Shown: positions 2,851-45,661 of the stretch, piece after piece | Numbering within the stretch: position 1 is the first letter of the stretch | Layout of the letters: each line of letters starts with the position of its first letter | Origin: Dysidea avara | Lineage: Eukaryota > Porifera > Demospongiae > Dictyoceratida > Dysideidae | Direction: 5' to 3' | DNA: 64,000 nucleotides | Assembly: GCF_963678975.1 (NCBI RefSeq) | Contig: NC_089274.1 | Span: 19,803,133-19,867,132 of the forward strand | Notes under the pieces: generated by a model | The model's input: the letters and a program-made list of their open reading frames with translations, nothing else | Databases searched by the model: none | What the model was told of the DNA's origin: nothing | Program-made: the position numbers and the translations under genes

Positions 2851-3747
2851 ATGGAAACTGTACTTAAACGCAAGAATTACTCCAGCGGACTGCTGAGTGG
2901 GAAACTTAAAGTTTTAACCTCCATGAAGAGCGCCAAGGCTAAACGAAGGGTTACCTTTCCAGTCAACGTCATGTTGCAACAAGCCATCACTGATGGAGAC
3001 AAAGAAGAGATCAAGAAAATAATCACAAAACACGGCAAGAGTGTCTTGGATCTTAAAGACCCGACTGGAATGCCGCTGTTGCACCGTGCCATCTTTGAAG
3101 ATCAAATTGAGTGTTTTGAGCTGATGGTAAACGAGGGTGCAAATTTACTTGCAACCGACGAGGAAGGATGGAACGCGTTGCACGTGGCCGTCTCGTTTGA
3201 AGACATGGACGCAGTTGAGCTGCTACTCCAACACAAGCCAGAACTGATCAACACTCGCACCATGGACAGTTTGAGACCGATCAATGTTTGCGAGTCAAAC
3301 TGTGAACTTTGTGCTTACCTTCTCCAAGCAGAGGTGACATATCTGAAAACCAGATCAGTCACACACTGGGATAGTGCCAACTGCAAACGAGAAGAACTAG
3401 AACTATTGAACATTGTAATGATAGTGAATGAAGAGGACGAGAGGAGCACTAGACAAGTACGACAAAGTGCCCTACACCTGTCAGCAGCTAAGAACTACCT
3501 TGGACTAGCTTACTACATGTTGGAGAACCAGTTAGTAACTGTAGACTGTGAGGATTATGAACATTGGACGGCACTTCACTTAGCTGCTCTACATTCCAGC
3601 ATGGACGTGTTAGTACTACTCATCCAATATGGTGCTAATGTGGAGAAGTTGACCAGTTGTTACAAGAGTCCAGTTGATCTGGCTGATGATGAACTGACCT
3701 TAGAGTTCTTGAGACGAGGCTCTGAATATATTGAACAAGCTATCTAA
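2851..3747 (+). CDS. MYPT-like ankyrin-repeat PP1-binding protein, copy 1
   Basis: Single-exon gene for 298 residues. A basic N-terminal tail ends in KRRVTF (residues 31-36), a textbook RVxF docking site for the catalytic subunit of protein phosphatase 1. Ankyrin repeats follow at about 41-73, 74-106 and 107-139, then a degenerate one at 140-168, an acidic linker at 175-204, and further repeats at 205-238, 239-272 and 273-290. The 'WNALHVA', 'SALHLSA' and 'WTALHLA' helices are clear. This order (RVxF, three repeats, gap, more repeats) is that of the N-terminal third of myosin phosphatase targeting subunits (PPP1R12/PPP1R16); PPP1R27 is a shorter alternative. The C-terminal regions of those proteins are absent. 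A cytosolic PP1 targeting or inhibitory role is inferred. The start codon is the first ATG after the TATA box, and its context (AAAAGATGG) is good. Confidence 0.9.
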   Translation: METVLKRKNYSSGLLSGKLKVLTSMKSAKAKRRVTFPVNVMLQQAITDGDKEEIKKIITKHGKSVLDLKDPTGMPLLHRAIFEDQIECFELMVNEGANLLATDEEGWNALHVAVSFEDMDAVELLLQHKPELINTRTMDSLRPINVCESNCELCAYLLQAEVTYLKTRSVTHWDSANCKREELELLNIVMIVNEEDERSTRQVRQSALHLSAAKNYLGLAYYMLENQLVTVDCEDYEHWTALHLAALHSSMDVLVLLIQYGANVEKLTSCYKSPVDLADDELTLEFLRRGSEYIEQAI

Positions 3748-4727
3748 TTTATGTAATAACTAATATATAATATCTAGCTATACGGGTTTGTTTACTGTAA
3801 GATTTTTAATCATTTTTTCGCTTTCGTTTTTAACTCTATTTTGTATTAAATTTGTGTTTGTTTTCTGCACTGAAAATGTTCATCAAACAAATAACAATTA
3901 TATCAAGTCAACAACAAATTAACTTCTCCCTTATTTAGAAGTGGGTTACAGGTATGATGCAGTACTTACAATCCTTAATCAATAAGCGTACTAGATTAAA
4001 CCCATGATGTACATGTGATGCTTTCATTATGCACGTATGTGTACATACCTCACCTATTGTAGATATAGGCTGTGCACGATGTTACTGTAATGTACAACAC
4101 CTTGCCCACTGCATCTATACGGTACAACAAATACTGTACTGATCTGTTGTTAACTTTTCCCTATTTGCTCTACATCCTATGTACGTTGTGGTTGGAATTG
4201 TTTGAAGAATAAATGAAAAATGTATAAAGGGGCAAGAAAGGTTACATGCAGTTTAGAATGCATTCACACAATATATATATATATATACTATATACATATA
4301 TTGTTAATTCAGCAAATACACTAGCTATATATGCTTTTAATGTAGATTTAGTGGCTGTTTTCCAGTTGTCATCATAATACACTTCCAATACAGCACGTAG
4401 TGACACAACACTGTGACATGAATGTTCTGTTGGAGTATTTGTAATTAACAGGAGCAACAATAACTAGCTGATGTATTTGTGCATGGTACTGGATAATTTT
4501 ACAGCTATAGTTTCACCTTCGGTTTAGTATACTTTGCATTTATCATAGATTTTTTTTCTCTTTTTGCACACTTACAAAATCCATAAACATGATATCTGGT
4601 TGCCTTGAAATATGGCACACTTAAAATGATGACAAAAGTTGAAATCTTTGGTGTCAAGTTTGTTAAAAAGTTAGAAATGATTATTCACATAATTTGAATT
4701 GATGGACATTAACATCATTGCAGCTAT
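3748..4727. other. 3' flank of ankyrin copy 1
   Basis: The first 170 bp after the stop resemble the 3' flanks of copies 2 and 3 and are probably 3' UTR. Similarity then fades. An AATAAA at 4208-4213 is a possible polyadenylation signal. A short (TA)n tract lies at 4270-4290. No other coding signal is visible. Confidence 0.5.
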
Positions 4728-5565
4728 TTCTTGGCGGGCATCTGGATTCAGTGGAATGGAATGGTGGAATGGAACGGTACATTGGTAATTTCAATTGGTG
4801 GTCACCTCTTTATAAAGACCACCTTCTAACAAATACCACCTCTTTATAAAGACCGTTTTACTTTAATGTTTAAATTGTTGCTATCTTATTGTTTTAGAGT
4901 GTGTCCCCATAGATGGTCTTATTGATTAGTTGTGCGCCACATGCCTAGAAAAGTCAGAGTGATATCTGATTTGTAATACAGCAATATACCCCATGCAAAA
5001 ATAGTTTGGCTGTACAAAAGTGACATCCCCATCAAACTAAAAATAACTGACAACTATAAAGGAGCTAATATTTGGGTGAGGTCAAGAAATACTGGCAAAT
5101 AATTATAACTCGCTATAATTTATAAAATTTTGGTCCTTTATCATTGACTCGCACAGTCTTGCTACATTCCTAATTAATTCCCTGTAACTCTAATTGGCTA
5201 GTAATTTAGCCGCCTTTTTTCTCCTCTACAACACCAGACTATTGAGAAAGGTACCAATTTACTAGCCTATTAGATTTACAGGGAATTAATTAGGAATACA
5301 GTCAGACTGCACAAGTCAATGATAAGGGACCAAGATTTGTTTAGTTGCCAGTATGTATTAACATTCATTTCTTGGCCTCATCAAATAATAGCTCCATTAG
5401 TTGCCAGTTGCTTTTAGTTTCGTGGGTACATCTTTTTTTGTATAGCCAAGCTGTTTTTGTATGGGGTATATAGCTATTACTGTATTGTATCATAAATCAG
5501 ATATCACTGGCTTTTCTAGTCATAACATGTGACACACAATTCATCATTATTTTAATTTTATTATT

Positions 5566-5847
5566 AGCGCTTTACAGTGACCAGCACTGAAGGTCTGACA
5601 GCAACATGTGCAGCAGCCTTAGGATTACCTAACCTAATTTCAAGGACTTAGACCTAGTGACTTGACTTACTGACTCATAAAGGTGTAACAGAAAAGGGGC
5701 CAAAGTAAGGAAAAAATCCCAGGATTCGAACTGCAAGTCACCCAATGTCTAGTCGGGGACACACTCAGTCTTCCTCCAGGAGAGATGGATTTTCTTCCTT
5801 AAACCTAAAGTATTTATTATTAGCACTTTACAGTGACCAGCACTGTT
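5566..5847 (-). mobile_element. tRNA-like SINE fragment
   Basis: A 280-bp segment bracketed by direct repeats of about 30 bp (TTATTATTAGCRCTTTACAG followed by TGACCAGCACTG, at 5567 and 5816). Between them, read on the minus strand, is CAGTTCGAATCCTGGG, which fits the pol III B box of tRNA genes; an A box is not clear. Related fragments of the repeated end lie near 48,655 (plus orientation) and 56,985 (inverted, extending into the next 20 bases). The SINE call is inferred from the B box and the dispersed copies. Confidence 0.45.
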
Positions 5848-5974
5848 AAGACTGTCTTATAGGGCTCTAAAACAACAATTCAGATATTAAAGTAAAACGG
5901 TATTTGTAAAGATGTGGTCTTTGTTAGAAGGTGGTCTTTTAAAGAGGTGACCACTAATTGAAATTACCTAAGAA

Positions 5975-12786: not shown

Positions 12787-12945
12787 AATTTATACAGTGT
12801 TCATCACAGAGTGTATACTGGTCCAAAATGGTCATCACAACTGATTGAATGGGCAGGGAAACATTTCTCAACATCCATGTTCTTAAACTATGAGCCTGCA
12901 AGTCGTGTTGTGATCTCGTCATTTTCAATACCAATAAAAGTTTGA
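12787..12945 (+). pseudogene. LCMT1-like exon fragment at the A/B junction
   Basis: The segment encodes, with a disrupted frame, a stretch resembling leucine carboxyl methyltransferase 1, the enzyme that methylates the PP2A catalytic subunit. FITEC is read at 12,800-12,814; about 12 bases present in the unit D copy are missing, and the reading resumes in another frame from 12,823 with SSQLIEWAGKHFSTSMFLNY and ends at a TGA at 12,943. The SAM-dependent methyltransferase core elsewhere in the family is not visible nearby, so only one exon is represented. A GCAAGT after the NYEP codons could be a non-canonical GC splice donor or simple decay. The frame-breaking deletion supports a relic. Confidence 0.6.
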
Positions 12946-14707
12946 TGTCAGTACCCTTCAATTATCATTGTGTCTAATTAAATTTTTGATATTACACTAT
13001 TAAGACATCAGGTGTCTAGTCTACATTGTGATAGTTATGAATGACTTTGCTATTTCCTGTGTACATAGCATACTGTAAACTTTTGGCAAATATGACGGTG
13101 ATATTTGCCAAATTTTTCCTCAACCAAAGTTTCTCTCTGTATGTTATATGAGCTTGGGTTATATCATTGTTTATGTTCAAGCGCAAAAATTTGTGGGAAA
13201 AAAGTGATTCTTAAATCAATTTTTCGCTTCTTTCTATCCATTTGGGCAATGTTCGTGTATAAGTTTTGTTGTATATGGTTTGCTGTTTTCACTCAACACA
13301 GTACAAGCTTGTACGTAGCTATTATAACCAGTTGGTCTAATGGCATGGCAAAACTTAAGCTGTGCTGTTAATAACTGTTATCATAGAGGTTCATATAAGA
13401 AGAATTGTGTTAGTATGTGATAGGATTGGCCTGTACATGTACACAAAATCAACTTATTTGTTAGCACAGACTTTTCCCTTCACTAATAAATTGGATTCCA
13501 TAATTAATAAGTCTGCTTTTAGGGGTTGCTATCTCCAGACAATGCTACGATGCCTGAAGATGGGCACCATTTTGAGGGGATGACGTCTTATCAGGTTGTC
13601 TTCGGCTCACCAGACAAATAACTTGTACTTTTCTTTATGTTCTAGTAGGTCTTGAAATACCATAATTCAGCCTGGTGATACTCCATGTGGCTTACTCTTT
13701 CATTTTGGCATACTAGTATTCACTCAATCCCCTCCCTTTGTGAGCATCCAAGCTCATGAAAAATCTATCCAAAATGGCAGGAAAACCTGGGTGACTGTTT
13801 TTGTAGACAATCTTGGAGGTATGAATTGCTTTATATAACATGTGCATATGTTGTTGGATCACATGCTGAGCTGTAGCAGATTAAAAACTTACAAATCCTG
13901 ACATCTCAGTACTTTTCCATGTGTGTGTTTTTGCAGAAACAAATGTATTATGTCATGATGACCATGAAGACTGTAGAGTTTGATTGGTGTAATTTAATGC
14001 ACATTGTTAGTCAGGGACACTAATATTAGTACTTGTGTGTATCGTCATGTTGCTGTTGCTTGAAAACATTATAAACCGCTTAAGGTCTGGTATAAGACAT
14101 TCCACATGAGTATATGACTACAAGTAGCTAACCTATTTGTGAGTACTCTATTATCACTTAATTCAAATACTAAAATCCATAATTGTTTCAGCTCTATACA
14201 AACCCAGTCACATATATTTGGTAGATTAGCTAGACTGGCATCTGGTTACCATTAACAGTGTATCCATATTTCAATAGTCTATACCATTTCTTAATCTTAT
14301 TCTATGAAACTATCACATTTGTTCTAGTACGTACAATAACAGTGTTCAGGTGACATTGTTTACTGATGCATAACTAGTATGTCCAGTTGTCCGAGGTGTA
14401 GTTATCTGTATAGATAATATTTTGATGTGCTCATATTTTAAAGCCATACCGATTAACAGTTTACTAAACCTCGTGTACTTATAAACCATATCCGCACTTT
14501 TACATTAATAGGTTTTGTTTATTTGTTCTATAAGATATTTTACGTATGTAACAGGAATAGCACAACTTTAACCCTAACCTGTGCACCTAGCAGAGGATGT
14601 ACATATAGTATTGTGTGGAATGTTAATAACACCTTATGTTGATCTATAGTGATGATATCTTGTGGAGAATACAACCTCGTAGAATAATCTTGTAGTGACT
14701 TATGCAG
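12946..14707. other. Non-coding spacer nearly identical to 37,181-38,920
   Basis: Differs from the unit C copy by scattered substitutions and a few short indels, such as a 22-bp stretch near 14,185 absent at 38,418. It includes a 12-bp-stem hairpin at 13,083-13,115 (TTTGGCAAATAT and its complement). The open frames at 13,105 and 13,362 shift frame or length between the copies and are not supported as genes. Confidence 0.6.
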
Positions 14708-15049
14708 TAGTGCTGAAATGAATAGCAATTTTTACTATTCGAATAGTTGTGAACAAAACGACCGAATATTCGATTATTCTTTAAGCTTATACTTCTATTG
14801 AATAAGTACTGAAACCTTTTGTTAGGAGCAAGGTAGCGAAAGCCTAAGCACTATTTCTAACAGTGTCTTTTCTAAAATAGAATATTTACAACATAGATAC
14901 ATCACTTCATTCACAATCTTAAGTTTCAAGGCCTTTCCATCTGAATACAGTGTACAAAGCGCTAACGATTATTCAAATAGTGTGTTAACGAATCAAATAG
15001 TGTTATACCGACCGAATAGTCAAATAACTGAATAATCGTTTCAGCACTA
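14708..15049. mobile_element. hAT-like MITE 1
   Basis: A 342-bp insertion with ends TAGTGCTGAAATGA and the complement of TAATCGTTTCAGCACTA. Flanks TTATGCAG and GTATGCAG form an 8-bp target duplication with one mismatch, typical of hAT transposons. Unit C has the empty site (38,925-38,935). The interior carries subterminal CGAATATTCG-like repeats and no open frame. Confidence 0.85.
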
Positions 15050-18000
15050 GTATGCAGTGTCAGCAATATTCTTTGTTTGCCATGCAATGAAGCATATATA
15101 TACTGACATGTAGAGAACGACTAACATATATTAGTTAAGATGACCAATACTCATATGGAAGCCTCATGTACTCCTATAAAAACTAGTGTCCATACCATTA
15201 CAGTAGCACACTGTCCAACCATATCAGTGACATTAGCACATGATATGTTGTAGACAGCGGTCATGGGGGTGGATGTGTACAATATAGTATCCATCTCCTG
15301 TTATTTATTTGTTTTACAGTTCAATAGCTGCTAATGACACTTTTGGTCAAGCGATGAAGAAGAATATCAAAGTAAACTTATAACATGTCACCGTTTCTGT
15401 TTGCCATGTTCCTGTTAGGCTAGAAGATGTCCACTGTTGGGGATTAATGCTTGTCCAAATCTGGAGTCACAGACATGATGGTAGTGATCACACTACACTG
15501 ACTCCTACTAATCATCCCATCATCATCCACTTTTGACCATACGTGTGGGCCATTGTATGATTAATGGTGTGTGTGAGCACCACTGGAATTCGTTGATTTA
15601 TGTTGTATTTCAAGACGTCCAACTGCAACACATCCCATTGGGATTTTAATTAAAATATCAAAATTTCCTAGTAGTAGAACCGTTATATATGGCACTACAG
15701 GAGACCAGTATTACAAACTTTGTCGCCATTTGTGATTATGTTGAAGAACATGTATGGCACTGATATCACTAATGAGGAGTTGTACGCTATGAGGAGTTGT
15801 GCTTTCCACAGCAAATATGATAATAATTTCTCCTCCACATCTGTTGAAGTCTCTTGCTTGAACAGTTCAACCTGGTGTATGCATGAAGGCCTTAAACTTC
15901 GATGAGTTAATAAACATGCATGCATAGGATCTAAATGTGTACAGTCAGCAGTATATTTGGTAATGAAAGCAGAGGATGTGTAGTGTGGGCCATCTGACCT
16001 TGTGTGGCCTCATTATATACTTTGACATGTTGAATGGTGTACTGTCACAACGGACAGAATGTAGTGAGGTAATATACATTACTAACTTATCTAGTGTCCT
16101 GAATACTACACACATCTCTTATGTGATGTTTATGCACATTGCACTACTAACTGCTGTGACTACAATTTTATTTTTACTAACATTTGATTCAAGATTTAAT
16201 TCAGCACTGACCGTGAAGTATTCACTGTTACAAACATTCCTTTTTTACATTGACGTTAATAACGTTTGACTTATAGGATGAAAAGTGCATGGTGAAATAA
16301 AAGTGTAATCATTTTCATTATTAATATGAGGCCATACAATATAGTATCAAATCTCATCTGAGGCAGTCTAGTAAGTATGTGATGAAGTACTTCCTGTGCA
16401 GTTGATTTAAAAATTACACAACAAATTTCCTAATGCTGTCTTGTGATCACAGTATACTGAGGTATAGCTAGCATGTGGTAATATGAGTTAGTAACAATGC
16501 TCCACACATTATCACAATAATACATTTATAATTTTAGACGTACTTTGTGTGTATATACACTATTTGTATAGTGTACTGTGGTTTGCTAGCAACAGAGACA
16601 TCTTAACAATGGTTGGTTAGCTGCTTGCGCAGTTGATATACCAAGTGATCCCCATTAGGTTTCATCCGGCACATACATAGCATGTTAGAGTCCAACGTCA
16701 TTAACCATGGTCACGCATGGCAGTGTTAGTCAGCTTAAGACATTACGTAGTACCATTAGGAGATGCTGACCGCCAACAACCATCAACCTCCCAGACATGC
16801 ACACAAACACCATTCTATTTTTATCGACGATGTAATACTTTATTGTAGTCAGAAATTCTGGATGTGTGGGAATTGAGGATATTAGTTGTTTACATTTAGT
16901 GCATGTGCATAGTATCATTTTGATGACAAACATGTGTATTATTATCCATACCCATACACACTTGGTCCTTCTATATAGTGTTGTATTTCTATTGACACAA
17001 TTAGCTGGTGTCAACTTAGCCAAGGGATGGCTCACAGATAGGATATAACTTGGAAGTTTCTTCATATTAATTTTGCAGATGATGTGATTTCCATAAGAAG
17101 TTCAATACTTTTGAATGTACTTATATCATGTAGTGATGCTAATTTTCTTTAGTTACATAAATTACCTTTTATACATACAATCTCATAGAAATGGTGTCAG
17201 TTTATTTCTCCAATAGGGAACGTTTCTGAAACAACCATATTCTGGTTGGTGTCATAATCGTTGTTTTAATTGGTGGGGCACAGTAACAGTAAACAAGAAA
17301 CAATCTGATGTCCACAATTGATTACACCAGCATATATATCTGTGATCAATTGTTGATAGCTTATCACTCACTTAATTGATGTTTATCGGAGGCAGTGTAA
17401 CATACAGTTAAAGTTGAGTACTTATCACAGCTGATGTTTTATATGATAGACTAAATTCTACAACTGTCAAGTCTCTATATGTCTATACACATCCTACATT
17501 ACATGACCTTACTTAGAGTTGTATATGTTTTCTGTGTGTATATGATGTACTTTGATGTTTAAGTTATTAGTGTACAGAGGCCAAACATGTGAGAGTATGT
17601 GACGTAGACTACATGTGTATGGCAGTTGTAATCAAATAAATCTTGTCCTTTTAGCTAACTCATAACTACAAGTGTTGGAATGACAGGACTGAATGGGGTT
17701 TGATCAATTTGTGTACTAAATTGAGAAACCGCTTATTTATGACTGACTGATCAGATCTCTTAAGAGGCCTAGGTATATAGTCATAATCTTGACATTAAGA
17801 CTTGGATGTAGAAGAAATTCCAGACCCATGCATGCGGTGGTGAAATGATTCTCCAGCAACATGCAATCCGGCTTTTTGATAGTAATAATTCTTCCAGGCA
17901 CCACAAATATGCATAAGAAAATCTTTGTTTAGTCTCACCCATCCCATTACTACTCCATAAGAAAGACCATGCTTATCACTCAAGAGGTTGTCAATCTCTT

Positions 18001-18061
18001 ATAAAACTCAGTGGCAGCATCACCCATTCCACAAGTGGTGGTGAAAATTAAGGGAGTAAAC
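15050..18061. other. Spacer upstream of ankyrin copy 2
   Basis: Collinear with 38,935-42,880 of unit C apart from the deletion near 16,640. It contains the conserved open-frame block at 15,393-15,536, annotated separately. In this unit the dinucleotide site near 15,570 is only GTGTGTGTG, whereas C and D have long expansions there. Other frames (15,695-16,269; 16,730-17,065) are interrupted in the other copies. Confidence 0.5.
15393..15536 (+). other. Conserved open-frame block of unknown function (unit B copy)
   Basis: Reads VPVRLEDVHCWGLMLVQIWS followed by HRHDGSDHTT and ends NHPIIIHF then TGA. The unit D copy (57,419-57,604) keeps almost the same peptide with an upstream methionine, while this copy has an in-frame stop at the preceding part and the unit C copy (39,487-39,640) has a net frame change across the middle. 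An AG precedes CTAGAAGATG, so it could be a 3' exon after an intron. I do not recognise the family. Confidence 0.25.
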
Positions 18062-18536
18062 CAAGGGCATCAGAGTAGGTGCGACCAGTGAGGCCAGAGC
18101 CTCACCACTTTTTGGCTCAGTGAAATAAAACAAATTTAAACTTGATGAAGCCAAACTAACATGTAATACTTGGCATCAATTTAATAGCAATATGGACAGA
18201 AACAACACTAACTTTCACTCAGAACAGCTTCATGTCGACTTTGTCCATATTAAGCGCCTCTAAATAATTACTGTTATACTAGCTTTGGCTTTGTTTCTCT
18301 TTGTAACTGCTTCGGAAACACTACTGTTTATTAATATATAGACACAAATGATAAGGTTAGGAGTTAAACAGTATTATGGAGGTGCTTTTTGGCCAGTCTC
18401 CATTGAACACTTGCACACAGTACTACAACCAAAGAGGCCTCCAAATAGCATCTCTAAATGTGCAATTTTAACAATTTCCTGGGGGCATGACCCCAGACTG
18501 AGCCTTACCACTTTCACTTTTACTCTGATGCCCCCG
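18062..18536. mobile_element. hAT-like MITE 2
   Basis: A 475-bp insertion with ends sharing GGGCATCAGAGTA in inverted orientation. A perfect 8-bp target duplication, GAGTAAAC, flanks it (18,054-18,061 and 18,537-18,544). Unit C shows the empty site GGGAGTAAACAAAAC at about 43,442. The internal open frame (18,348-18,542) runs into the terminus and is not a gene. Confidence 0.92.
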
Positions 18537-18996
18537 GAGTAAACAAAACATTCCCTACTTCATGAAGTATTCTCACCTCTTTTCCTTATCATGACATCCA
18601 GAACAGAATTGGGAGTTGATTTGAGGGTGCAGTAGGGTTAAAAATCCTGACATCAAAATATGACCTCTCAAATCTTCCTCCTCAAAAGCCATTAGCTACA
18701 ATGTCTAGCCTTGCATTATCATCACAGTTGGCTGTTTTGTTTGGAAGGGTCTCACCAGAAAAAGACTGAAGGTGGGGTTCAATGACAATGATGGTACAAT
18801 AGGTCGGCAGTTACATCCCGTACTTCATTATGTCTCCCCACCCTTTGGACAAGACAGAACATGATATGGTAAAAGAGTGACCACAAGCACAGGGGGTAGA
18901 TGGGTAGCCAATGATAATGAAGTCAAGTGTAATTGCATAAGCACAAAGTTGTATGAATTCCATGGAAGACAAGAGAGCCAATTACATGCACATACT
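18537..18996. other. Spacer matching 43,445-43,924
   Basis: Highly similar to unit C over its whole length. The minus-strand frames seen in unit C (43,467-43,932) are broken here, so they are not retained as genes. Confidence 0.5.
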
Positions 18997-29252: not shown

Positions 29253-29423
29253 ATGCGTTCAGTCAAGCGTAGCGGAAAACTGGCTACAGCTACATCCTTG
29301 CTTCTTTGGCGAAAATGCTTCGAATTTTGTGGAGAAAAACCTTTCACAATATTAAATACCTACGATGTGTGCGCTACTGTCTTACTGTTTTATCTTTGAT
29401 CCTTCTTTATCATGGCCATCTCT

Positions 29424-29551: not shown

Positions 29552-30130
29552 GCCATCTCTCATGCCGGGTACGGCTTCCATCAAAGCACGCACACCACAG
29601 CGCCCCAACATATTGGAATAAACGTGTAGCATAATTGTAGCAAGCACATGATTTTAATGTTGGGATACACCTCGGGATATGCTGCTGCCTGTTCAACATC
29701 GCCACTACACGCATAAGGATTCAGTAGAGTGTTTGCTTTGGCTCGAAGGTGGTTTCTTTTCTGAGTTTAAAAACCGGTTGTATATGGCGCCTCTCTACAG
29801 ACTCTATGGGTAGCTTTCCCAGAGCACTTTTCAGGCGTACTACAACTGAAAAACACCATAGTAGGCCTCATAGGCTCGCGTATCTCATCGTCTAGAAAGT
29901 GGGCGTGACCCGTACTTACGCAAACTAAAAGTAAGAGCAGCCCTGAGGCTTTGTTGAAAGAATTAGTGGAAAATAATACTGTAGACACACTATAAAACAG
30001 TTGAAAAGATGCTTCTGTGGGTAATGTGTTGTTTAAAGCGGTTTGTTAAAAATCAGCATCCTTAGGAACGTTTAGCTGTGTATTTCGAGAATACGGTTAT
30101 TCAATAAAATTTACAAAAAAAGTACACAAA

Positions 30131-30376
30131 CAAGTGCAAGAAAAAATTAGGAATATTCCATATGAGTAGGGACTGTAGCAATAAAAAGCGCTGAGACAAA
30201 ACACAACTGAATGATTGCATTTTAATCCCTACTTTAACCTGCTATGATGTATGGTTAAAGTAGGGATTAAAATGCAATCATTCAGTTGTGTTTTGTCTCA
30301 GTGGCTTGTTTCAGTGCTTTTTATTGCTGCAGTCCCTACTCATATGGAAAATTCCTAATTTTTTCTTGCACTTGTT
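30131..30376. repeat. Foldback with AGTAGGGA boxes
   Basis: Long inverted repeat centred near 30,246. From the left, ACAAGTGCAAGAAAAAATTA, CATATGAGTAGGGACTG, GCTGAGACAAAACACAACTG and TTTTAATCCCTACTTTAACC all recur inverted on the right. The right arm has a short extra stretch (GTGGCTTGTTTCA) not present on the left. Arms are over 100 bp and would form a large cruciform. Confidence 0.85.
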
Positions 30377-30946
30377 AATTAAGGCTTACTGTATGACAAT
30401 GGTAGCACTTGCAGTTTGCAAGGCCATGATGCATTTATCACCTAATTTATTTATACCATTGTGGAAGGTAGAGCTGTAGAATCAATAACCTACACCTAAT
30501 TGTTGACAGAATTTCAGTGCAAATTTACATGCAATACATTGAAGCTCCACTTGGCATTGACCTCATTAACAAGACCACTTCATTATTGAGACAATGTAGC
30601 TAAAGTAAGCTCCTATAACTAAGTAACTATGAGTAACATAATGATCTATGGAGCCTTTGTGTGCAGCACTTGATAAATGCTGATTTGGTGTCGTCTATAA
30701 CCAGTAATGTCTGGCGGTGTTGTCTCTGTTATGTATGAACTAATATTTTCCTGGAATACTGGAAAGGTAAATACATAAAGTGATGATATGAAACTCTATA
30801 CCAGGTAACATCATCAGATTATGAATATGCTTAGTGCTGTCAGTTATAGGATCAACTATCCAGTGAAATCACCATTGGTATGTCAAATGTGTTGACAACT
30901 GACGTGGTATAACAATACTATACTTGGCCAATGAATATAATTATAT
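30377..30946. other. Spacer matching 51,796-52,360
   Basis: Non-coding. It contains one copy of the dispersed 'AACCAGTAATGTCTGG' segment (about 30,698-30,740). Similar to unit C throughout. Confidence 0.5.
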
Positions 30947-31225
30947 CAAGAGTACATAATAAAAATAGGGAGGGAGAGTGTCTAACTGCCAATACAGCCT
31001 GTACAAAATCACTGCGTATTATTGAATAGACAATGATCTTTGAACAAATTAACACTTTAACTGATGATAGAGATCTGTTGATAGGTGTTGAGTGCTGTTG
31101 ATAAGTATTGAATAACGTAAAGCTTTTGCTCTACCAATGTGTGGATTGTCTATAATACGCAGTGATTTTGGCTGAAGGTGTCCTAGTTAGACACTCTCCC
31201 TCCCTATTTTTATTATGTACTCTTG
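30947..31225. mobile_element. MITE with 40-bp perfect inverted ends
   Basis: A 279-bp insertion with perfect 40-bp terminal inverted repeats starting CAAGAGTACATAATAAAAAT, and further imperfect pairing inside (CAAAATCACTGCGTATTAT). ATTATAT is duplicated on each side (30,940-30,946 and 31,226-31,232). Unit C holds the empty site AATTATATTGATAATAC at about 52,362. Superfamily is not clear from a 7-bp duplication. Confidence 0.92.
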
Positions 31226-34200
31226 ATTATATTGATAATACAGATGAAGAATCAACTTCAGCTATAGCACCCATCCTCCATCCATTAGTGTGGCACATGT
31301 TAAGAAAATTTTCATATTAACAAAGCCCTAACATCATTGTTCAGGTTACTTATTGTTCCATACAGTTTCAGAAATTTGGGGGGAGGACAAGTAGGTTCAG
31401 TGTAATGGTAAGACCATTTTCACCTGATGTGTTTATACCATTGTGTAAGGTAGAACTGTACTACATACAATGAGGGATCATCTCATTATTGTAACAATGT
31501 GAAGCTCTAAGCATAGCTAAAATGTATTTTCATGACCTCATTAATAGTTATTGAGGTAAATGTTGAAGGTGACCCAATTACTGAGACTATTCGATTCTTC
31601 TTGTTGGTTGAAGATTAACCATGAAATGAAACAATAAAAGTAGCCAATGAAATTTGATACATTTTCTACGTAATTAGGGAATGACGTTTGTCATGACGTC
31701 ACTTATTTCAGGTAATTGTGGATAGCAAAATGTCCTGCAGGATTTCTGTGTACAGTACATGACCTGATGTTTGTAGCCAGTAATGTCTGGTGATGTTGTC
31801 TCTACCATATGAACTAATTGTGTTAACATTTTTACCGGAATTCTTATTTGCACAATGAATGAAATCCTAGATGAAGTTAGTAGATTATGACCATGTCTTC
31901 AATGCTTTTGGACTGGCAAGAGATTGACAAGTGTACTCACTGAGCTATAACACACATCAACAGCATCACACAACTGAAATATTTGATGTGTTTCCCATAA
32001 TTATATAGCTAAATGGAAAGTATGTTAGAGAGTTTTCCCTTATCTGGTCAAACATTATGGATGCCCATGCACACGATATGATCTATCATGTGTGCTCACT
32101 GAAAATGTAGACTGCAACAGGAGTCACAACCCAGGAAATTCTTTGTGAGGTTATTACTACCATAACCCTGATGTGCTCAAAGCTTAAAGTGTGTATTTAT
32201 TTAGGAGGCACTCTATTCCTTACTTTGTCAATTGTGTGAACAGTTTTTGTTTTGTTGTGTTCAGAATGTGCAACGAGGTACTAAGAAAATAGCATTTATT
32301 ACTCCAGTATAATCATTTAGTCCTATATCCATTAGCAATACTCTAGTAATATTGTCGTAGTGATGCTTTCTGTCCGGCTTACTTGTGTGTGTCATGTAAC
32401 TAGACTTTTCTCTGTAACTTGATACAGCTCACTTTTAATACAAGAACATGTGTTTAATAAAAAATGTATGATACTCCTTAACCACATTGTCACTTTTTTA
32501 GCTCCCTCCCTGGTGGACTATATATTTAGCAAATGGATGCCACTGTCATCTCTTGCACCTTTCAACACCACCCATGCAAACAAGTTGACTTATCCTTAGT
32601 CTAGTTACATCTCCTGCTGAGATGTAGTAATTGAGGTAGTGTGGAATCTTTGCTTTTGATTCTTCTGAATTCCAACCTGGAATGGTCACATTCTGACATG
32701 TCAAAAAACTGATTGCATCAGCTTTAAGGAATATATGAACAATATGTTAACTGAAAATGTGTTTAGTCAGTGAAGTGTGAGATGTTGAGCTTGTGGTGAG
32801 GTTAGTGCCTTGATACTCTTCTGAGAAACTCAGGAATGTTGTAATCAACAGTTACTTTGTTTATAGCCAGTATTACTTGAAGTGTTATATTACAAGGGAA
32901 TCCTGTAAATTTGCAGTTGAAGATAGTATCCAGCTAAAATCAAATGTCTCTAAAAGCTTTAATTTTGTTGCTAAGTAAGGAGGAATACATATGTACCTAA
33001 AGGTTTCATTACAGTGTGTACACTTATACACATGACCGATGATACCCACACTTGGTGATTGAGTCACTGGTGATGTGTGTTTAAGTAATAGATGTGCATT
33101 AATACGTAGGTGGTAGATCAGGTATCAATGGTACTATCATGTAGTTCCTCATTAGACTCCATAGTGACTAAGTCTCTTTACACCAACAAACAGAGTCTCA
33201 ATCAGTGACGATGCAATTACAACATTAAACTACGTATCAGAATACTGGCTGATAAACACATTACTTGTAATAAGTGTTCAGTTATATGTTGATAGTGAGG
33301 CATGTTCATGTATTGAGTATTGGTCATATACCCTTAGCCATCATGTGCCAGTTGTTGAATGTGCTGTAACATACTGATTGTACAAAAATGTACTGAATTG
33401 ATAATGAAACAATTACAATTAATTTGAATGGTGGTCTCACATCATATTGTTGATGTTACAATCAAAGGCTGCAACAGAATACGGTATACAGTATGCATGA
33501 ACTATGAGTTATGTGAATTGAACATCTAGTCTCTATAATATAAGAAGCCTTGACCTGCACAACACCAGGCAGGTAGCCATTATAAAAGAGGTTTCAGTTG
33601 TAAAGTATGTAGAAAGGATGACTATTCTATACCTGTGTTAAGTGAAATGTGATTGTGCATCATCTCATCAGTATTTTAATACAATAGTGTTATGTACATA
33701 TACAATACCATGGAATTGTGTATACTGTGAACTTTTAGCAACTACACTGATGTATTGTGCCGAATGTAACCCAGTAGTTACAACCTTGTCATAAACTCTT
33801 GTGTCACAGTTGTTACTAATGCCCAAGGTCCAAGACATTATTAACAGAACACAATGAGAGCAAGCAATACCAGCCTTATATGCATAGCACATCTAACATG
33901 TCATATCAAATAAAGCCCATGCATGCTACCTTAAATCAAACACTGATACTGTGAAAAGGTATTCCATGTTTGTATTGTTACTGGAATAATGTGATAGTAA
34001 TGATCATTGATTTGTACCATATTCTACTCTCTCTGTGTATCAGAGGATCATCCTCAGTCTCCATATTGGAGTAGTGTTTGATAACAGTGAAGCTTTCCCT
34101 AGTATGGAAGACTGATGATAGTCTTCTAGTGAAGTGAGTATTTGGTGAATTTATGCTAGTCTTCCATAGATAACATGTAAGGTCTATGTTAGCAAAGTTT

Positions 34201-37026: not shown

Positions 37027-37119
37027 TACAAGTAATATTCTAAAATGTATAATTTAAAGTAATTAAGTAATTACTTTAAATAATTACTCCATGATTCTAC
37101 AAGTAATATTCCAAAATGT
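37027..37119. repeat. Direct repeats flanking a palindrome at the B/C breakpoint
   Basis: TACAAGTAATATTCTAAAAT at 37,027 recurs with one change at 37,098, and between them TAATTTAAAGTAATTA pairs with TAATTACTTTAAATAATTA. The second repeat ends CCAAAATGT exactly where unit C sequence begins inside the LCMT1-like exon (ATGTTCTTAAAC). This marks the physical join of units B and C. Confidence 0.7.
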
Positions 37120-37195
37120 TCTTAAACTATGAGCCTGCAAGTCGTGTTGTGATCTCGTCATTTTCAATACCAATAAAATTTTGACGTCAGTACCC
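37117..37195 (+). pseudogene. 5'-truncated LCMT1-like exon at the B/C junction
   Basis: Only the last part of the exon remains: MFLNYEPASRVVISSFSIPI, matching the A/B junction copy. The ECVL and WAGKHFS portion is missing because the unit boundary falls inside the exon. It cannot encode a functional product. Confidence 0.6.
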
Positions 37196-39226
37196 TTCAA
37201 TTATCATTGTGTCTAATTAAATTTTTGATATTACACTATTAAGACATCAGGTGTCTAGTCTACATTGTGATAGTTATGAATGACTTTGCTATTTCCTGTG
37301 TGCATAGCATACTGTAAACTTTTGGCAAATATGACGGTGATATTTGCCAAATTTTTCCTCAACCAAAGTTTCTCTCTGTATGTTATATGAGCTTGGGTTA
37401 TATCATTGTGTATGTTCAAGCGCAAAATTCTGTGGAAAAAAAGTGATTCTTAAATCAATCTTTTGCTTCTTTCTATCCATTAATTTGGGCAATGTACATG
37501 TATATGTTTTGTTGTATATGGTTTGCTGTTTTCACTCAACACAGTACAAGCTTGTACGTAGCTATTATAACCAGTTGGTCTAATGGCATGGCAAAACTTA
37601 AGCTGTCCTGTTAATAACTGTTATCATAGAGGTTCATACAAGAGGAATTGTGTTAGTATGTGATAGGATTGGCCTGTACATGTACACAAAATCAACTTAT
37701 TTGTTAGCACAGACTTTTCCCTTCACTAATAAATTGGATTCCATAGTTAATAAGTCTGCTTTTAGGGGTTGCTATCTCCAGACAATGCTATGATGCCTGA
37801 AGATGAACACCATTTTGAGGTGATGACGTCTTATCAGGTTGTCTTCAGCTCACCAGACAAATAACTTGTACTTTTCTTTATGTTCTAGTAGGTCTTGAAA
37901 GACCATAATTCAGCCTGGTGATACTTCATGTGGCTTACTCTTTCGTTTTAGCATACTAGTATTCACTCAATCCCCTCCCTTTGTGAGCATCCAAGCTCAT
38001 GAAAAATCTATCCAAAATGGCAGGAAAACCTGGGTGACTGTTTTTGTAGACAATCTTGGAGGTATGAATTGCTTTATATAACATGTGCATATGTTGTTGG
38101 ATCACATGCTGAGCTGTAGCAGATTAAAAACTTACAAATCCTGACATCTCAGTACTTTTCCATGTGTGTGTTTTTGCAGAAACAAATGTATTATGTCATG
38201 ATGACCATGAAGACTGTAGAGTTTGATTGGTGTAATTTAATGCACAATGCTAGTCAGGGACACTAATATTAGTACTTGTGTGTATCGTCATGTTGCTGTT
38301 GCTTGAAAACATTATAAACCGCTTAAGGTCTGGTATAAGACATTCCACATGAGTATATGACTACAAGTAGCTAGTATTTGTGAGTACTCTATTATCACTT
38401 AATTCAAATACTAAAATCCAACCCAGTCACATATACTTGGTAGATTAGCTAGACTGGCATCTGGTTACCATTAACAGTGTATCTATATTTCAATAGTCTA
38501 TAACATTTCTTAATCTTATTCTATGAAACTATCACATTTGTTCTAGTACGTACAATAACAGTGTTCAGGTGACATTGTTTACTGATGCATAACTAGTATG
38601 TCCAGTTGTCCGAGGTGCTGTTGTATGGATAATATTTTAATGTGCTCATATTTTAAAGCCATACCGATTAACAGTTTACTAAACCTTATGTACTTATAAA
38701 CCATATCCACACTTTTACATTAATAGGTTGTGTTTATTTGTTCTATAAGATATTTTACGTATGTAACAGGAATAGCACAACTTTAACCCTAACCTGTGCA
38801 CCTAGCAGAGGATGTACATATAGTGTTGTGTGGAATGTTACTTAACACCTTATGTTGATCTATAGTGATGATATCTTGTGGAGAGTACAACCTCGTAGAA
38901 TAATCTTGTAGTAACTTATGCAATGTCAACAATATTCTTTGTTTGCCATGCAATGAGGCATATTGACATGTAAAGGACAACTAAAATAATTAGTTAAGAT
39001 GACCAATACGCATATGGAAGCCTCATGCACTCCTATAAAAACTAATGTCCATACCATCACAGTAGTACACTGTCCAGTGACATTAGCACATGATATGTCG
39101 TAGACAGCAGTCATGGGGGGTTGGATGTGTACAATATAGTATCCATCTTCTGTTATTTAAATGTTTTACAGTTCAATGCTATAATGACACTTTTGGTCAA
39201 GTGATGAAGAAGAATATCAAAGTAAA
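37196..39226. other. Spacer nearly identical to 12,956-15,365
   Basis: Non-coding duplicate of the unit B region without hAT-like MITE 1. It keeps the TTTGGCAAATAT hairpin (37,321-37,351). Open frames differ from the B copy in length and frame. Confidence 0.5.
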
Positions 39227-39482
39227 TATGTGACTGAATTTTGGAAAATCACCCATATGGGCGCATTTGACACCTAAAATAATTAATAATCAAATCACAA
39301 ACTTTACAAGGCAAATGTACTTGTTTATGGTTTTAAGCCATCCTCAATACCTTTAATTACAAGAAAATTCTTGAAATATTTTTAAAGCTGTACCCTGCTC
39401 TTATTAGCAACCTACTAAACATGGAAATTCTAATTGTTTCACACACGCCCATATGGGTGATTTTCCAAAATTTGGTCGCATA
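39227..39482. mobile_element. MITE with TTTTGGAAAATCACCC inverted ends
   Basis: A 256-bp insertion relative to unit B, which reads AAAGTAAACTTATAACATG at the same place. The ends share TATGTGACTGAATTTTGGAA and, next to it, AATCACCCATATGGGCG in inverted orientation, about 37 bp with a few mismatches. The CCCATATGGG box is itself a palindrome. No coding capacity. Confidence 0.82.
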
Positions 39483-39670
39483 TATAACATGTCACCGTTT
39501 CTCTTTGTTATGTTTCTGTTAGGCTAGAGGATGTTCACTGTTGGGGATTGATGTTTACATCCAGATCTGGAGTCACAGGTATCATTGGTAGTGATCACAC
39601 TACACCGACTCCTACTAATCATCCCATCATCATCCACTTTTGATCATTTATGGGCCATTGTATGATTAAT

Positions 39671-39671
<1 letters not shown>

Positions 39672-39744
<73 letters not shown>
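39672..39744. repeat. (GT)n microsatellite, unit C
   Basis: About 36 uninterrupted GT units. The equivalent site in unit B has four and in unit D has a long interrupted tract (57,633-57,719). The minus-strand frame rich in His-Thr across it is an artefact. Confidence 0.95.
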
Positions 39745-39746
<2 letters not shown>

Positions 39747-42700
39747 CACCAATGGAATTTGTTGATTCATGTTGTATTTCTAGACGTCCAACTGCAACAC
39801 ATCCCATTGGAATTTTAATTAAAATATCAATGTTTCCTAGTAGTGGAACCATTATATATGGCACTACAGGAGAAGTATTACAAAATTTGTCACTATTTGT
39901 GATTATGTTGAAGAACATGTATACATACACTGATATCACCGATTAGGAGTTGTATATGAGGAGTTGTGATTTCCACAGCATAGATGACAATAGTTTCTCC
40001 TGTGCATCTGTTGAAGTCTATTGCTTGAACAGTTCAACCTGGTGTATGCATGAAGGCCTTAAACTTCGATGAGTTAATAAACATGTATGTACATGTATCT
40101 AAATGTGTACAGTCAGCAGTATATTTGGTAATGAAAGTAGAGGATGTGTAGTGTGGGCCATCTGGCCTTGTGTGGCCTCATTATGTGCTTTGACATGTTG
40201 AATGGTGTATGGACAGAGTGTAGTGATCATGAGGTAACTACATTACTAACTTATCTAGTGTCCTGAATACTACAAGAGGAGTACACTTCTCTTATGTGAT
40301 GTTTGCACTTTTGCACTACTAACTGTTGTGACTACAATTTTATTTTTATTAACATTTGATTCAAGAGTCAATTCAGGGCTGACCATGAAGTATTCACTGT
40401 TACAAACATTCATTTTACATTAACGTTAATAATGTTTGACTTATAGGATGAAAAGTGCATGGTGAAATAAAAGTGTAATCATTTTCATTATTAATAATTA
40501 TGAGGCCATACAATTATCTTAAATAGGACTTCAACTTCTGCATTGAATGATGCACCATCTTATCTGAGACAGACAGTCTAGTAGTCAATATGTAATGAAG
40601 TATCTCCTGTGCAGTTGATTCAAGAATTATATAGACAAGCCAACAAATTTCCTAATGCTGTCTTGTGATCACAGAATACTGAGGGATAGCTAGCATGTGA
40701 TAATATGAGCTAATAACAATGCTCCACACATTATCACAACAATACATTTATAATTTTATATGTACATTGTGTGTATACACTGTTTGTATAGTATACTGTG
40801 GTTTACTAGCAACGGAGGTATCTTAACAATGGAAGTCGGCCTCTTGGGCAGTTGAAATGCTCTCTTTGGGTGAGCTAAAATGCAACACTGTTGTATTTGT
40901 TATTGATAACAAGACATCTACACTTACTAATTAGACCTTTAATAGTAATTCCTTTTACATGTCAAGCTTTTGTGATATAGAGTTGAAAGGTTGGAGTTTC
41001 TCAATGAGGGAGACCTGTTAACTCAATTGTTAAGACACTATTGTATCAGTGTTGGTTATAATGACAAGAATGATGTAGGTCAGTAATGTGTGGTGTACAT
41101 TGTGACTACCCAATACCATACACCATGATGGGACTATTAATAATACTAAATGGTTTATGATATTTCTCCCTGTGTGTCTCCAATGTGTTTCTTGCATGGG
41201 AGGTACTTCAGAGCCACACACAAACATGAATGCATGCACACACCACGTCTTTGCTGCCTGGCTGCCAATTGTCATGACACAGTTTCGTTAATTTAAAGTC
41301 TAGCTACCATATGGCAGTAAATTTTGACAGAAAGAAAGTTGACAGATCATTTGCTTTGACAAATTAAATGTTGAGATCTCAACATTCACTTTTGAAGCAC
41401 TTATTGATGTTTGATGAATTAAATGTTGACAATTTTAGCTGGTTTATCAACTTTTCCTTCCGCCAAAATTGTCTGTTGTACAGTTATCAAGCTCTTTGTG
41501 CAATTGATTAATAAGAGGCCTGCAAAACCTTAACAGATGCACACAAGGTTGGTGTGTACCAAGTGATACCATCAAGTTGCATCTGGCACTTACGTAACAC
41601 ACAAGAGTCCAACCTCATTAACAATGGTCAGTGTAAGACATTACATAGTACCATTAGGAAATGCTGACCGTCAACAAGCATCGACCTCCTAGACATGCAC
41701 ACAAACATCATTCTATTTTTAACAATGATGTAATACTTATTGTAGTCAGAACTTCTGGATGTGTAGGAATTTAGGATATTAGTTGTTTTCATTTAGTGCA
41801 TACACATAGTGTCATTTTGATGATAAGCATGTGTATACATTATTATCCAGACCCATACACACTCAGTCCTTCTATATGGTGTTGTATTTCTACTGACACA
41901 ATTAGCTGGTGTCAACTTAGCCAAGGGATGGCTCTATAACTTGGAAGTTTCTTCACATTAACTTTGCAGATGATGTGATTTCCATAAGAAATTCAACACT
42001 TTTGAATGTACTTATATCATGTAAAGATGCCAATTTTCTTTAGTTACATAAATTGCCTTTTTATACATATAATCTCATAGAAAATGGTGTTTATTTCTCC
42101 AATAGGGAACATTTCTGAAACAACCATGATCATATATTCTGGTTGGTTGTCATGATTGTTGTTTTAATTGGTATAACACAGTAACAGTTAACAAGGAACA
42201 ACTTAATGTCCACCATTGTTGATAGTTTATCACTCACTTGATGAGGTGCTGTAACATACAGTTGAAGTTGAGTACTTACCACTGCTGATATTTTATATGA
42301 CATTTCCTTAAGTTACGCTAGACTAAATTCTATAACTGTCAAGTCTCTATACGTCTATACACATCCTACATTACATGACCTTACTTAGAGTTGTGTATGT
42401 TTTGTGTGTATATGATGTACTTTGATGTTTATGTTATTAGTATACAGAGGCCAAACATGTGAGAGTATATTGTTAGCTATACCGAAATTGACGTAGACTA
42501 CATGTGTATGGCAGTTGTAAATCAAATAAATCTTGTCCTAACTCTTAACTACAAGTATTGGAATGGCAGGACTGAATGGGGTTTGATCAATTTGTAGACT
42601 AAAATTGAGAAACTGCTTATTTATTATTTATGCCTGACTGATCAGATCTCTTTATAGCCCTAGGTATAGTCATAATCTTGACATTAAGACTTAGATGTAG

Positions 42701-42880
42701 AAAAAATTCCAGGCCCATGCATGCGGTGGTGAAATGATTCTCCAGCAACATGCAAACCGGCTTTTTTATAGTAATACATATATAACAGTAGCAAAAACAA
42801 ATGGACCTAAATATTAGCTTCTGTGACCTGCACAGAAATCAGCAACTGGACAATGCAAATTGGACCAGAAACCACAAATA
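39745..42880. other. Spacer upstream of ankyrin copy 3
   Basis: Collinear with 15,580-17,910, plus a block at 40,840-41,560 that B lacks and A and D keep. A stretch at about 41,285-41,480 has no match in A and has weak inverted similarity at its ends (AAATTTTGACAG against CAAAATTGTCTG), possibly an old MITE. No gene is supported. Confidence 0.45.
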
Positions 42881-43278
42881 TAGTGTTGCACCGATAATCG
42901 GATCGGTTATTGGAAAAACCATATATCGGCTGTGTTTTTTTGTATATCGGTATCGCATTGGCACCAAGATGTAAAAAGCAGCAGATACAGATATATGAAT
43001 TTATTCAGAACACATGCTCACGTGCACCAAATGATGTCTACAAATGTAATGAGTTACATTTCCTGTATTATGATGTTGTTAATACTGCTTCAATGCAATG
43101 TCAGCTGTTGTTGTAGCAATGCTGCCACTATAAACAAGCTAAAGTGGTCCTTCACTAGTAAAAATTACTACAAAATAGATATTGTACTATATCGGATTGG
43201 TTACATTTATCGGTTTGAAAATATTATTCAATATTGGTTATCGGAATATCGGCAAAATCTCATATCGGTGCAACACTA
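42881..43278. mobile_element. hAT-like MITE 5
   Basis: A 398-bp insertion with ends TAGTGTTGCACCGATA in inverted orientation and a perfect 8-bp target duplication CACAAATA (42,873-42,880 and 43,279-43,286). The interior has repeated ATCGGT boxes (subterminal repeats). Open frames across it (42,910-43,400) arise from the element and do not resemble a transposase. Confidence 0.95.
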
Positions 43279-43924
43279 CACAAATACACATAATTGCATA
43301 TCTCAACAAAGAAAAGCTTAGTTTAGTATCATCCATCCCATTACTACTCCATAAGAAAGACCATGCTTATCACTCAAGAGGTTATCAATCTCTTATATGA
43401 GTGGCAGCATCATCCATTCCACAAGTAGTGATGAAAATTAAGGGAGTAAACAAAACATTCTCTGCTTCATGAAGAGTTCTCGCCTCTTTTCCTTATCATG
43501 ATATCCAGAGAGCAGAATTGGGAGTTGATTTGAGGGTGCAGTAGGGTTAAAAATCCTGACATCAAAATGTGACCTCTCAAATCTTCCTCCGCAAAAGCCA
43601 TTAGCTGTGATGTCAAGCCTTGCATTATCATCACAGTTGGCTGTTTTGTATTGAAGGGTCTCACCAGAAAGAGACTGAAGGTGGGGTTCAATGACAATGT
43701 TGTCACAATAGGTTGGAAATTACATTCCGTACTTCATTATGTCTCTCCACCCTTTGAGCAAGACAGAACATGATATGGTAAAAGAGTGACAAAAAGCACA
43801 GGAGGTAGAGGATAGCCAATGATAATGAAGTACAATTGCGTAAGCACAAAGTTGTATGACTTCTATGGAAGACAAGAGAGCCAATTGGATGCATACTTCT
43901 CCTAACTCAGCATGCAGTCCCTTC
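43279..43924. other. Spacer matching 17,915-18,990
   Basis: Similar to unit B without hAT-like MITE 2. The minus-strand frames at 43,467-43,932 overlap each other in different frames and are broken in unit B, so they are not called genes. Confidence 0.5.
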
Positions 43925-44383
43925 ATTACCAACTTTGTCTGTACTTTGGATGGATGTCCATAAGGTTATGATTAAAAAGAATGCATTATTGACATATGAG
44001 GATGCAAATTTAAGACAACGTAGCGCAGCAGTGAAAAGACTGCTGCTGTTAGGTAACGTCAAAAGTTATCAACCATCTATTACTATATCATTTAGCATCA
44101 GAAAACCAGGAAAATATTGGTGTTATCACCTGGCAATTTCAGTATTTTACAAATATTGTATTTTCAAATGTATTAGTAAATGCAATATTATAAAATACTG
44201 AAATTTCCAGGTGAAAACACCAATGGTTTTCTAATACTAAATCATATAGTAATAGATGGTTGATAACTTTTGATGTTACCTAACAGCAGCAGTCTTTTCA
44301 CTCACTTAGATGTGCATTCCCATATGTCTGTAAGTACATTCTTTTTTTCTTTCATAACCTTATGTCCATCCAAACTTGGTAAT
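43925..44383. repeat. 459-bp near-complete foldback insertion
   Basis: Almost the whole segment is an inverted repeat centred near 44,160. Outer pairs: ATTACCAA with TTGGTAAT, and GGATGTCCATAAGGTTATGA with its complement. Inner pairs: GTGAAAAGACTGCTGCTGTT, TCAAAAGTTATCAACCATCT, and TTTCAGTATTTTA, each recurring inverted. Unit B lacks it. The 88-codon frame on the left arm is incidental. Confidence 0.88.
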
Positions 44384-44639
44384 GTGTTATGCACTAAACT
44401 TTAATAGGGGCCACAGCAGCTGTGCACATCTTTGAAATGCATGCAGCTATGAACAGCTGCAGTGGGCAGACGAAGTGATTACTTTTGTGTGAAAGTAAAC
44501 TCTTGCAGCTATGTAGTGCCTGCCCCTTTGAAGCTTACGTTGAGCACGGGTGCCGCCTTTTAATTATAAATACTGCTTCATGTGTATATTTCATATTCGT
44601 GTCGAAGAAAAACTGTAGGTCTATACTGTAAACAGTGCA

Positions 44640-44685
44640 TGACGTCATTGTACGTCCAATGACTTCCGGTAATCATTGTATAAAT
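44640..44685 (+). promoter_or_regulatory. Core promoter of ankyrin copy 3 (CRE, CCAAT, TATA)
   Basis: TGACGTCA (44,640-44,647), CCAAT (44,656-44,660), CTTCCGG and TATAAAT (44,679-44,685) repeat the layout at copy 2 with the same spacing. The TATA box is 76 bp before the ATG. Confidence 0.65.
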
Positions 44686-44761
44686 ATGTGAGCGCTTGTC
44701 GCTTTCGATCATAACTCTTTCTTAAAGTGAAACTGAGTGAGCGAAATAAAGTGAGATATCA

Positions 44762-45661
44762 ATGATGGAAACAGTGTTTAAGTGCAAGAATTATTCCAGC
44801 GGACTGCTGAGTGCGAAGCTTAAAGCTCTAACCTCCCTGAAGAGCACCAAAGCTAAACGAAGGGTCACCTTTCCAGTCAACGTCATGTTGCAACAAGCCA
44901 TCACTGATGGAGACAAAGAGGAGATCAAGAAAATAATCACCAAACACGGCAAGAGTGTTTTGGATCTTAAAGACCCGACTGGAATGCCACTACTGCATCG
45001 TGCCATCTTTGAAGATCAAATTGAGTGTTTTGAGCTGATGGTAAATGAGGGTGCAGATTTGCTTGCAGCAGACGAGGAAGGATGGAACGCGCTGCACGTG
45101 GCCGTCTCGTTTGAAGACATGGACGCAGTTGAGCTGCTGCTCCAACACAAGCCAGAACTGATCAATACACGCACCATGGACAGTTTGAGACCAATCAATG
45201 TTTGCGAGTCAAACTGTGAACTTTGTGCTTACCTTCTCCAAGCAGAGGTCACATATCTGAAAACCAGATCAGTCACACACTGGGATAGTGCCAACTGCAA
45301 ACAAGAAGAACTAGAACTATTAAACATTGTAATGAGAGTGAATGAAGAGGACAAGAGGAGCACTAGACAAGTACAACAAAGTGCCCTACACCTGTCAGCA
45401 GCTAAGAACTACCTTGGACTAGCTTACTACATGTTGGAGAAACAGTTAGTAACAGTAGACTGTGAGGATTATGAACATTGGACGGCACTTCACTTAGCTG
45501 CTCTACATTCCAGCATGGATGTGTTGGTACTACTCATCCAATATGGTGCTAATGTGGAGAAGTTGACCAGTTGCTACAAGAGCCCAGTTGATCTGGCTGA
45601 TGATGAACTGACATTAGAGTTCTTGAGACGAGGTTCTGAATATATTGAACAAGCTGTGTAA
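44762..45661 (+). CDS. MYPT-like ankyrin-repeat PP1-binding protein, copy 3
   Basis: Intact single-exon gene for 299 residues, about 95% identical to copy 1 and closer to it in the C-terminal half than copy 2 is (EFLRRGSEY ending). The N-terminal tail (METVFKCKNYSS) is shared with copy 2. KRRVTF, the PP1 docking motif, begins near residue 32; ankyrin repeats follow as in the other copies. Copy-specific changes cluster in the linker and the following repeat: KQEELE, VMRVNEEDKRS, RQVQQS and LEKQL, making that surface more basic. Promoter and start context match copy 2. The role is inferred to be PP1 targeting or inhibition in the cytosol. No sign of decay. Confidence 0.9.
   Translation: MMETVFKCKNYSSGLLSAKLKALTSLKSTKAKRRVTFPVNVMLQQAITDGDKEEIKKIITKHGKSVLDLKDPTGMPLLHRAIFEDQIECFELMVNEGADLLAADEEGWNALHVAVSFEDMDAVELLLQHKPELINTRTMDSLRPINVCESNCELCAYLLQAEVTYLKTRSVTHWDSANCKQEELELLNIVMRVNEEDKRSTRQVQQSALHLSAAKNYLGLAYYMLEKQLVTVDCEDYEHWTALHLAALHSSMDVLVLLIQYGANVEKLTSCYKSPVDLADDELTLEFLRRGSEYIEQAV

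Follow-up and report, generated by a model that had tools for sequence, protein, structure and literature searches.

Protein phosphatase 1 (PP1), a major enzyme of cell signaling, derives its specificity from its subunits, several of which place an RVxF-type docking motif ahead of ankyrin repeats. PPP1R12A (MYPT1) continues beyond its repeats into a C-terminal regulatory region containing ROCK sites and a PRKG1-binding domain, while PPP1R16A and PPP1R16B (MYPT3 and TIMAP) possess a pair of ankyrin blocks with a linker between them, as well as a long C-terminal region with a CaaX end. Both groups also carry the myosin phosphatase N-terminal element (MyPhoNE), which is stated to lie N-terminal to RVxF in all MYPTs (excerpted text of PMC6737228). 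PPP1R27 (DYSFIP1), a stand-alone protein of only 154 aa, contains a single ankyrin block, and members of the ASPP/iASPP (PPP1R13) group combine RVxF with one ankyrin block plus an SH3 domain. Here we describe a 64,000-nucleotide stretch of the Dysidea avara genome (NC_089274.1, positions 19,803,133 to 19,867,132; C3:19803133-19867132 in the searched assembly of 550 Mb and 108 contigs), hereafter the window, which holds three members of an array of genes encoding stand-alone RVxF-plus-ankyrin proteins. Judged by sequence, their products are best described as 'PPP1R27 with a second ankyrin block', that is, small putative PP1 regulators, and they probably act as one-domain PP1 regulatory subunits of the MYPT superfamily that compete with MYPT and PPP1R16.

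Gene structure and purifying selection across the array

The three window genes lie on the forward strand, each a single exon open from ATG to stop without interruption, namely gene A (2851..3747, 298 aa), gene B (19798..20709, 303 aa) and gene C (44762..45661, 299 aa), and their proteins share 93-95% pairwise identity. Each protein contains exactly one RVxF-like match, inside the putative PP1-docking motif KRRVTF at residues 31-36 of gene A (2941..2958), 36-41 of gene B (19903..19920) and 32-37 of gene C (44855..44872). The motif is followed by ankyrin repeats, a stretch lacking ankyrin consensus and a second ankyrin block. This two-block arrangement with an intervening linker is the layout of the MYPT family (PPP1R12/PPP1R16), the second half being partly of low confidence in the predicted model. 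Pfam searches of the three proteins return ankyrin models only (Ank_2, E 2e-27, 6.2e-23 and 9.2e-26). The initial annotation of three intact one-exon genes carrying KRRVTF and a MYPT-like repeat layout thus holds. Its further statement that nothing follows the ankyrins is supported by sequence, short of proof: none of the 15 family coding sequences has a GTRAG donor-like site within its final 80 nt, and the C-terminal regulatory region (the PRKG1-interacting domain in PPP1R12) is not encountered in the family; PF15898, the C-terminal domain of MYPT, matches the genome once at E <= 1, on contig C7 (4 candidates scored).

The annotation also proposed a tandem expansion of three genes; the expansion stands, and the count rises to 14 plus one. 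A search of the genome with gene A yields 28 matches, 15 of which belong to this family. Fourteen copies, 89-100% identical to gene A, occupy C3:19719628-20001570 (282 kb of one chromosome-sized contig), 12 on the forward and 2 on the reverse strand, and a diverged one-exon relative with 48% identity lies 25 kb past the array at C3:20026146. The remaining 13 matches are fragments of other ankyrin open reading frames (ORFs) with 25-35% identity. Thirteen of the 14 array copies retain intact ORFs, the exception (L021, C3:19870073) ending early at 268 aa. The copy at C3:19767032 has a coding sequence identical to that of gene A and 99.05% identity over 3.9 kb with gaps, a pattern that a recent duplication and an assembly duplicate would produce alike.

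Purifying selection maintains the array. Among the 14 copies the median dN/dS is 0.20 (range 0.04-0.35 over 90 of 91 pairs, one pair being identical), which argues against chance ORFs. By region, pN/pS is lowest, at 0.09, across RVxF and the first repeat (ANK1); it reaches 0.16 in both ANK2-3 and the second block, 0.33 in the linker, 0.40 in the N-terminal tail and 0.30 in the C-terminal tail; the pairs are not independent, and no test value is therefore given. The docking motif together with the first repeat is thus the most constrained part of the family. Synonymous differences amount to 0.10 in the linker and second block versus 0.18-0.34 elsewhere, a reduction that may reflect gene conversion.

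Similarity to described PP1 subunits

All 15 family proteins contain an RVxF-type motif, once each. RVTF is unchanged in every one of the 14 array copies and reads KVTF in the 48%-identical relative, and the spacing from RVxF to ANK1 places the motif in the same register as in MYPT1, with no gap. Excerpts of peptide work on MYPT1 name A42, V43 and E55 as key interacting residues (PMC12110079). The corresponding residues of gene A are V40, M41 and E53, and the glutamate is invariant in all 11 alignment rows.

We compared the family by profile with MYPT1 and ASPP2, whose sequences were checked against the PDB, with PPP1R16B and PPP1R27, whose sequences may be inexact, and with 37 control ORFs, comprising a first set of 26 and a harder set of 11 drawn from eight other loci among those that MYPT1 matches best in the genome. 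Scores refer to the best single stretch unless noted, because designed and long ankyrins win on total score. A hidden Markov model (HMM) of the family gives PPP1R16B 89.0 bits, MYPT1 74.8 and PPP1R27 54.1, the last over half the length, and the controls reach at most 56.1 bits in the first set and 25.1 in the harder set. The same profile bears on membership of the ASPP group, where RVxF also precedes the ankyrins. We regard this as the least probable assignment: ASPP2 scores only 28.6 bits, below several generic ankyrins, the three window proteins show no Pfam SH3 match at E <= 0.001, and they contain two ankyrin blocks instead of one.

Profiles of the separate halves resolve the likeness further. 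With the N-terminal half, PPP1R27 scores best (56.5 bits), followed by a gene on contig C8 designated L026 (54.5), MYPT1 (42.4), PPP1R16B (40.6) and generic ankyrins (at most 36.4). PPP1R27 shares with the family a short stand-alone design in which RVxF runs directly into F-P-x-x-V and then ankyrins; the family proteins, at ~300 aa, add a linker and a second block. With the second half, the second block of PPP1R16B leads at 44.1 bits, followed by an ankyrin set of L026 at 34.2, and MYPT1 reaches 26.8 (to its first block), no better than generic ankyrins at 28.8. By these profile scores the N-terminal half is nearest PPP1R27 and the second repeat block nearest PPP1R16.

The genome also encodes ordinary PP1 subunits. 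A canonical MYPT on C7, split into exons, is 53% identical to chicken MYPT1 over residues 5-82, and the PF15898 piece is found on that strand at a distance of 17 kb. A PPP1R16-like gene, likewise split, lies on C8 at 5.27 Mb. A whole-genome search with chicken MYPT1 gives 141 matches, among them all 15 family genes. The first two, 26% identical over residues 31-277 in one open frame (E 4.7e-19), belong to the family; L026 comes third, and the diverged family member appears at 5.2e-10; the canonical MYPT scores lower per piece because it is split into exons. Searches of the PDB with phmmer and profiles return many ankyrins, including MYPT1 (1s70_B), collinear with the family over approximately residues 30-280.

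Several results weigh against placing the family in the MYPT superfamily. RVxF-like strings occur, anywhere in the ORF, in 10 of the 26 first and 5 of the 11 harder controls (15/37), so that the motif alone is weak evidence; the evidential weight lies in its register and conservation. MyPhoNE, sought with the pattern R..Q[VIL][KR].[YWF] (a provisional consensus), is found in none of the 15 family proteins; the MYPT and PPP1R16-like genes of this genome contain it as RNKQLKEW and RQKQLKKW, respectively. The array thus coexists with ordinary PP1 subunits and differs from both in a defining feature, and of the 'MYPT N-terminus' originally assigned to these proteins, the RVxF motif and the two-block layout remain and MyPhoNE falls away. 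In the reverse profile test, an HMM of MYPT1 and PPP1R16B gives all 15 family proteins 84.1-115 bits (91-115 within the array, 84.1 for the diverged member) and PPP1R27 100.1; generic ankyrins reach 84.6 (L057), 80.9 (L060), 76.0 (L059) and 73.1, L026 at 96.2 exceeds three family members, and the first controls other than L026 reach at most 58.0. The reverse scores thus separate the array, by a narrow margin, from generic ankyrins, and do not so separate the diverged member. On whole-sequence scores with the family HMM, long ankyrin ORFs of this genome attain up to 231 bits versus 75.2 for MYPT1, and designed and long ankyrins in the PDB likewise outscore MYPT1 on total score. Searched by themselves against the PDB, residues 143-240 retrieve no MYPT chain. 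The family is 24% identical to MYPT1 (245 positions), which does not exceed its identity to certain generic controls (20.5-27.7%). A PPP1R12/16/27 tree of 15 rows, the placement that the initial annotation had called for, leaves its deciding branch without support (47/30), with one generic ankyrin inside the group. Finally, the structure model (11 of the 15 proteins aligned) has a middling mean predicted local distance difference test score of 67.5, and fold comparison with it ties MYPT1 with generic ankyrins and iASPP.

These results bear most directly on the possibility that these are ordinary ankyrin-repeat adaptors, with RVTF present only incidentally and a protein other than PP1 as partner. 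The genome abounds in ankyrin proteins (at least 174 PF12796 matches), and the low identity to MYPT, the poor separation from generic ankyrins in the reverse and fold comparisons and the frequency of RVxF-like strings among the controls all suit such a family. An incidental motif is harder to reconcile with a MYPT register, with identity in all 14 array copies and persistence as KVTF in so distant a relative, with its place in the most constrained region, and with a forward profile that prefers PPP1R16B and MYPT1. We therefore consider an adaptor family a serious but clearly less likely explanation than a PP1 subunit. The motif and its register, the layout and the forward profile scores carry the assignment to the MYPT superfamily; taken together, the scores favor PPP1R12/16/27 over generic ankyrins and ASPP2, clearly in the forward direction and narrowly in reverse.

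Two further frames of this kind were encountered. L026 (C8:3.807-3.810 Mb; also L052, C8:3.806-3.810 Mb), a second unusual ankyrin gene in the genome with a putative PP1-docking-like motif, is a 772-aa open frame. Its PPP1R27-like module (SVSFPPEV, extending to SVSFPPEVLLQ) resembles the family in joining RVxF to ankyrins and differs from it in sitting within a longer frame among other ankyrin sets. L057, an open frame of 272 aa (C9:26735266-26736027) in which KIQF precedes ankyrin repeats, scores 84.6 bits with the MYPT1 and PPP1R16B profile and only 23.3 with the family profile; it could be a further RVxF-ankyrin gene or match by chance.

A putative role in competition for PP1

Most probably the family proteins engage PP1 by way of both RVTF and the ankyrin face. 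RVTF would dock in the RVxF pocket of PP1, and the shared motif-to-repeat register suggests that the first ankyrin repeats would lie beside PP1 as they do in MYPT1. The second block could extend the substrate surface or touch the PP1 C-terminal tail, residues 301-309 of which are bound by the MYPT1 ankyrins (portions of PMC6377682). Regulation or targeting in the manner of MYPT would presumably be impossible, because the family lacks both MyPhoNE and any C-terminal region for regulation or myosin binding. The likeliest net effect would be competition with the genome's own MYPT and PPP1R16 for PP1, redirecting or blunting its activity, and the family proteins may thus be plug-in or decoy regulators, retained as an array by purifying selection with short promoter-like elements in many copies. 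Such competition, which we infer by analogy, has a precedent in TIMAP, described in parts of PMC6737228 as competing with MYPT1 for PP1 in endothelial cells and blocking the PP1 active site.

A more speculative role, which we hold to be a long shot, is that of a dosage-amplified PP1 shield, in which an excess of MYPT-type modules lacking regulatory tails would cap the active site and keep a protected pool of PP1. It is conditional on the sponge, or another host, living with natural products that inhibit PP1 and PP2A. The available sections of the cited sources report that PP1c-beta loses its microcystin binding when complexed with TIMAP (PMC6737228) and that sponges are known for PP1/PP2A-type inhibitors and okadaic-acid-binding proteins (PMC5754374). 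Such a role, if true, would amount to a novel form of self-protection through amplification of a regulatory subunit. With 13 intact array copies and one relative beside ordinary MYPT and PPP1R16, the locus offers natural variants of an apparent minimal PP1 regulator lacking MyPhoNE, and lets one ask what a bare docking module does alone and how evolution tunes the dosage of competing subunits.

Duplicated surroundings and upstream elements

Self-comparison of the window, in pieces of at least 300 bases, reveals a duplicated segment around gene B (12877..34134) that matches in pieces, at 82-96% identity and 21-25 kb apart, a segment around gene C (37116..55230). The matching stretch around gene A is short (2847-3918). 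The long diverged duplicate blocks surrounding genes B and C indicate segmental copying, and segmental tandem duplication accounts for at least part of the array's growth.

Promoter-like elements recur upstream. On the forward strand, a TATA-like TATAAAA lies 67 nt upstream of gene A (2784..2790), and TGACGT, TTCCGG and TATAAA precede genes B (19675..19719) and C (44640..44684). Of the 14 copies, 9 have TTCCGG 71-103 nt upstream (versus 0.25% of 2000 random 120-nt window pieces), 11 have a TATA-like element no more than 100 nt upstream (versus 10% of random pieces), and 11 have TGACGT, or the complement of this sequence, no more than 150 nt upstream (versus 2.75% of random 120-nt pieces). Because the copies are related, shared descent explains part of this likeness.

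These surroundings also speak to whether the genes are processed or degenerating, nonfunctional copies of a MYPT gene, as a single exon (versus several in the genome's MYPT) and the truncation of L021 might imply. Processed copies would hardly come with such long duplicated flanks as genes B and C have, nor would decaying ones be expected to leave 13 of 14 frames intact at so low a median dN/dS and to keep promoter-like elements in most copies; moreover, the N-terminal half is nearer PPP1R27 than MYPT1. We judge this origin very unlikely.

Other sequences accompany the array. A LINE-type reverse transcriptase ORF occupies positions 61038-62096 of the window (RVT_1, E 2.6e-29), and a very long (TG)n repeat (L040:951-1757) precedes the diverged family member by ~1.3 kb. 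Immediately to the left of the array, an exon-like frame (L042:2320-2607, C3:19.701 Mb) may represent, from its resemblance by eye, a leucine carboxyl methyltransferase, the enzyme that methylates PP2A. COX1 gives 21 matches over nuclear contigs, mostly broken, like nuclear copies of mitochondrial DNA; the best (C8:25954946) contains three TGA codons reading as Trp, and one lies at C3:20195380, ~0.2 Mb right of the array.

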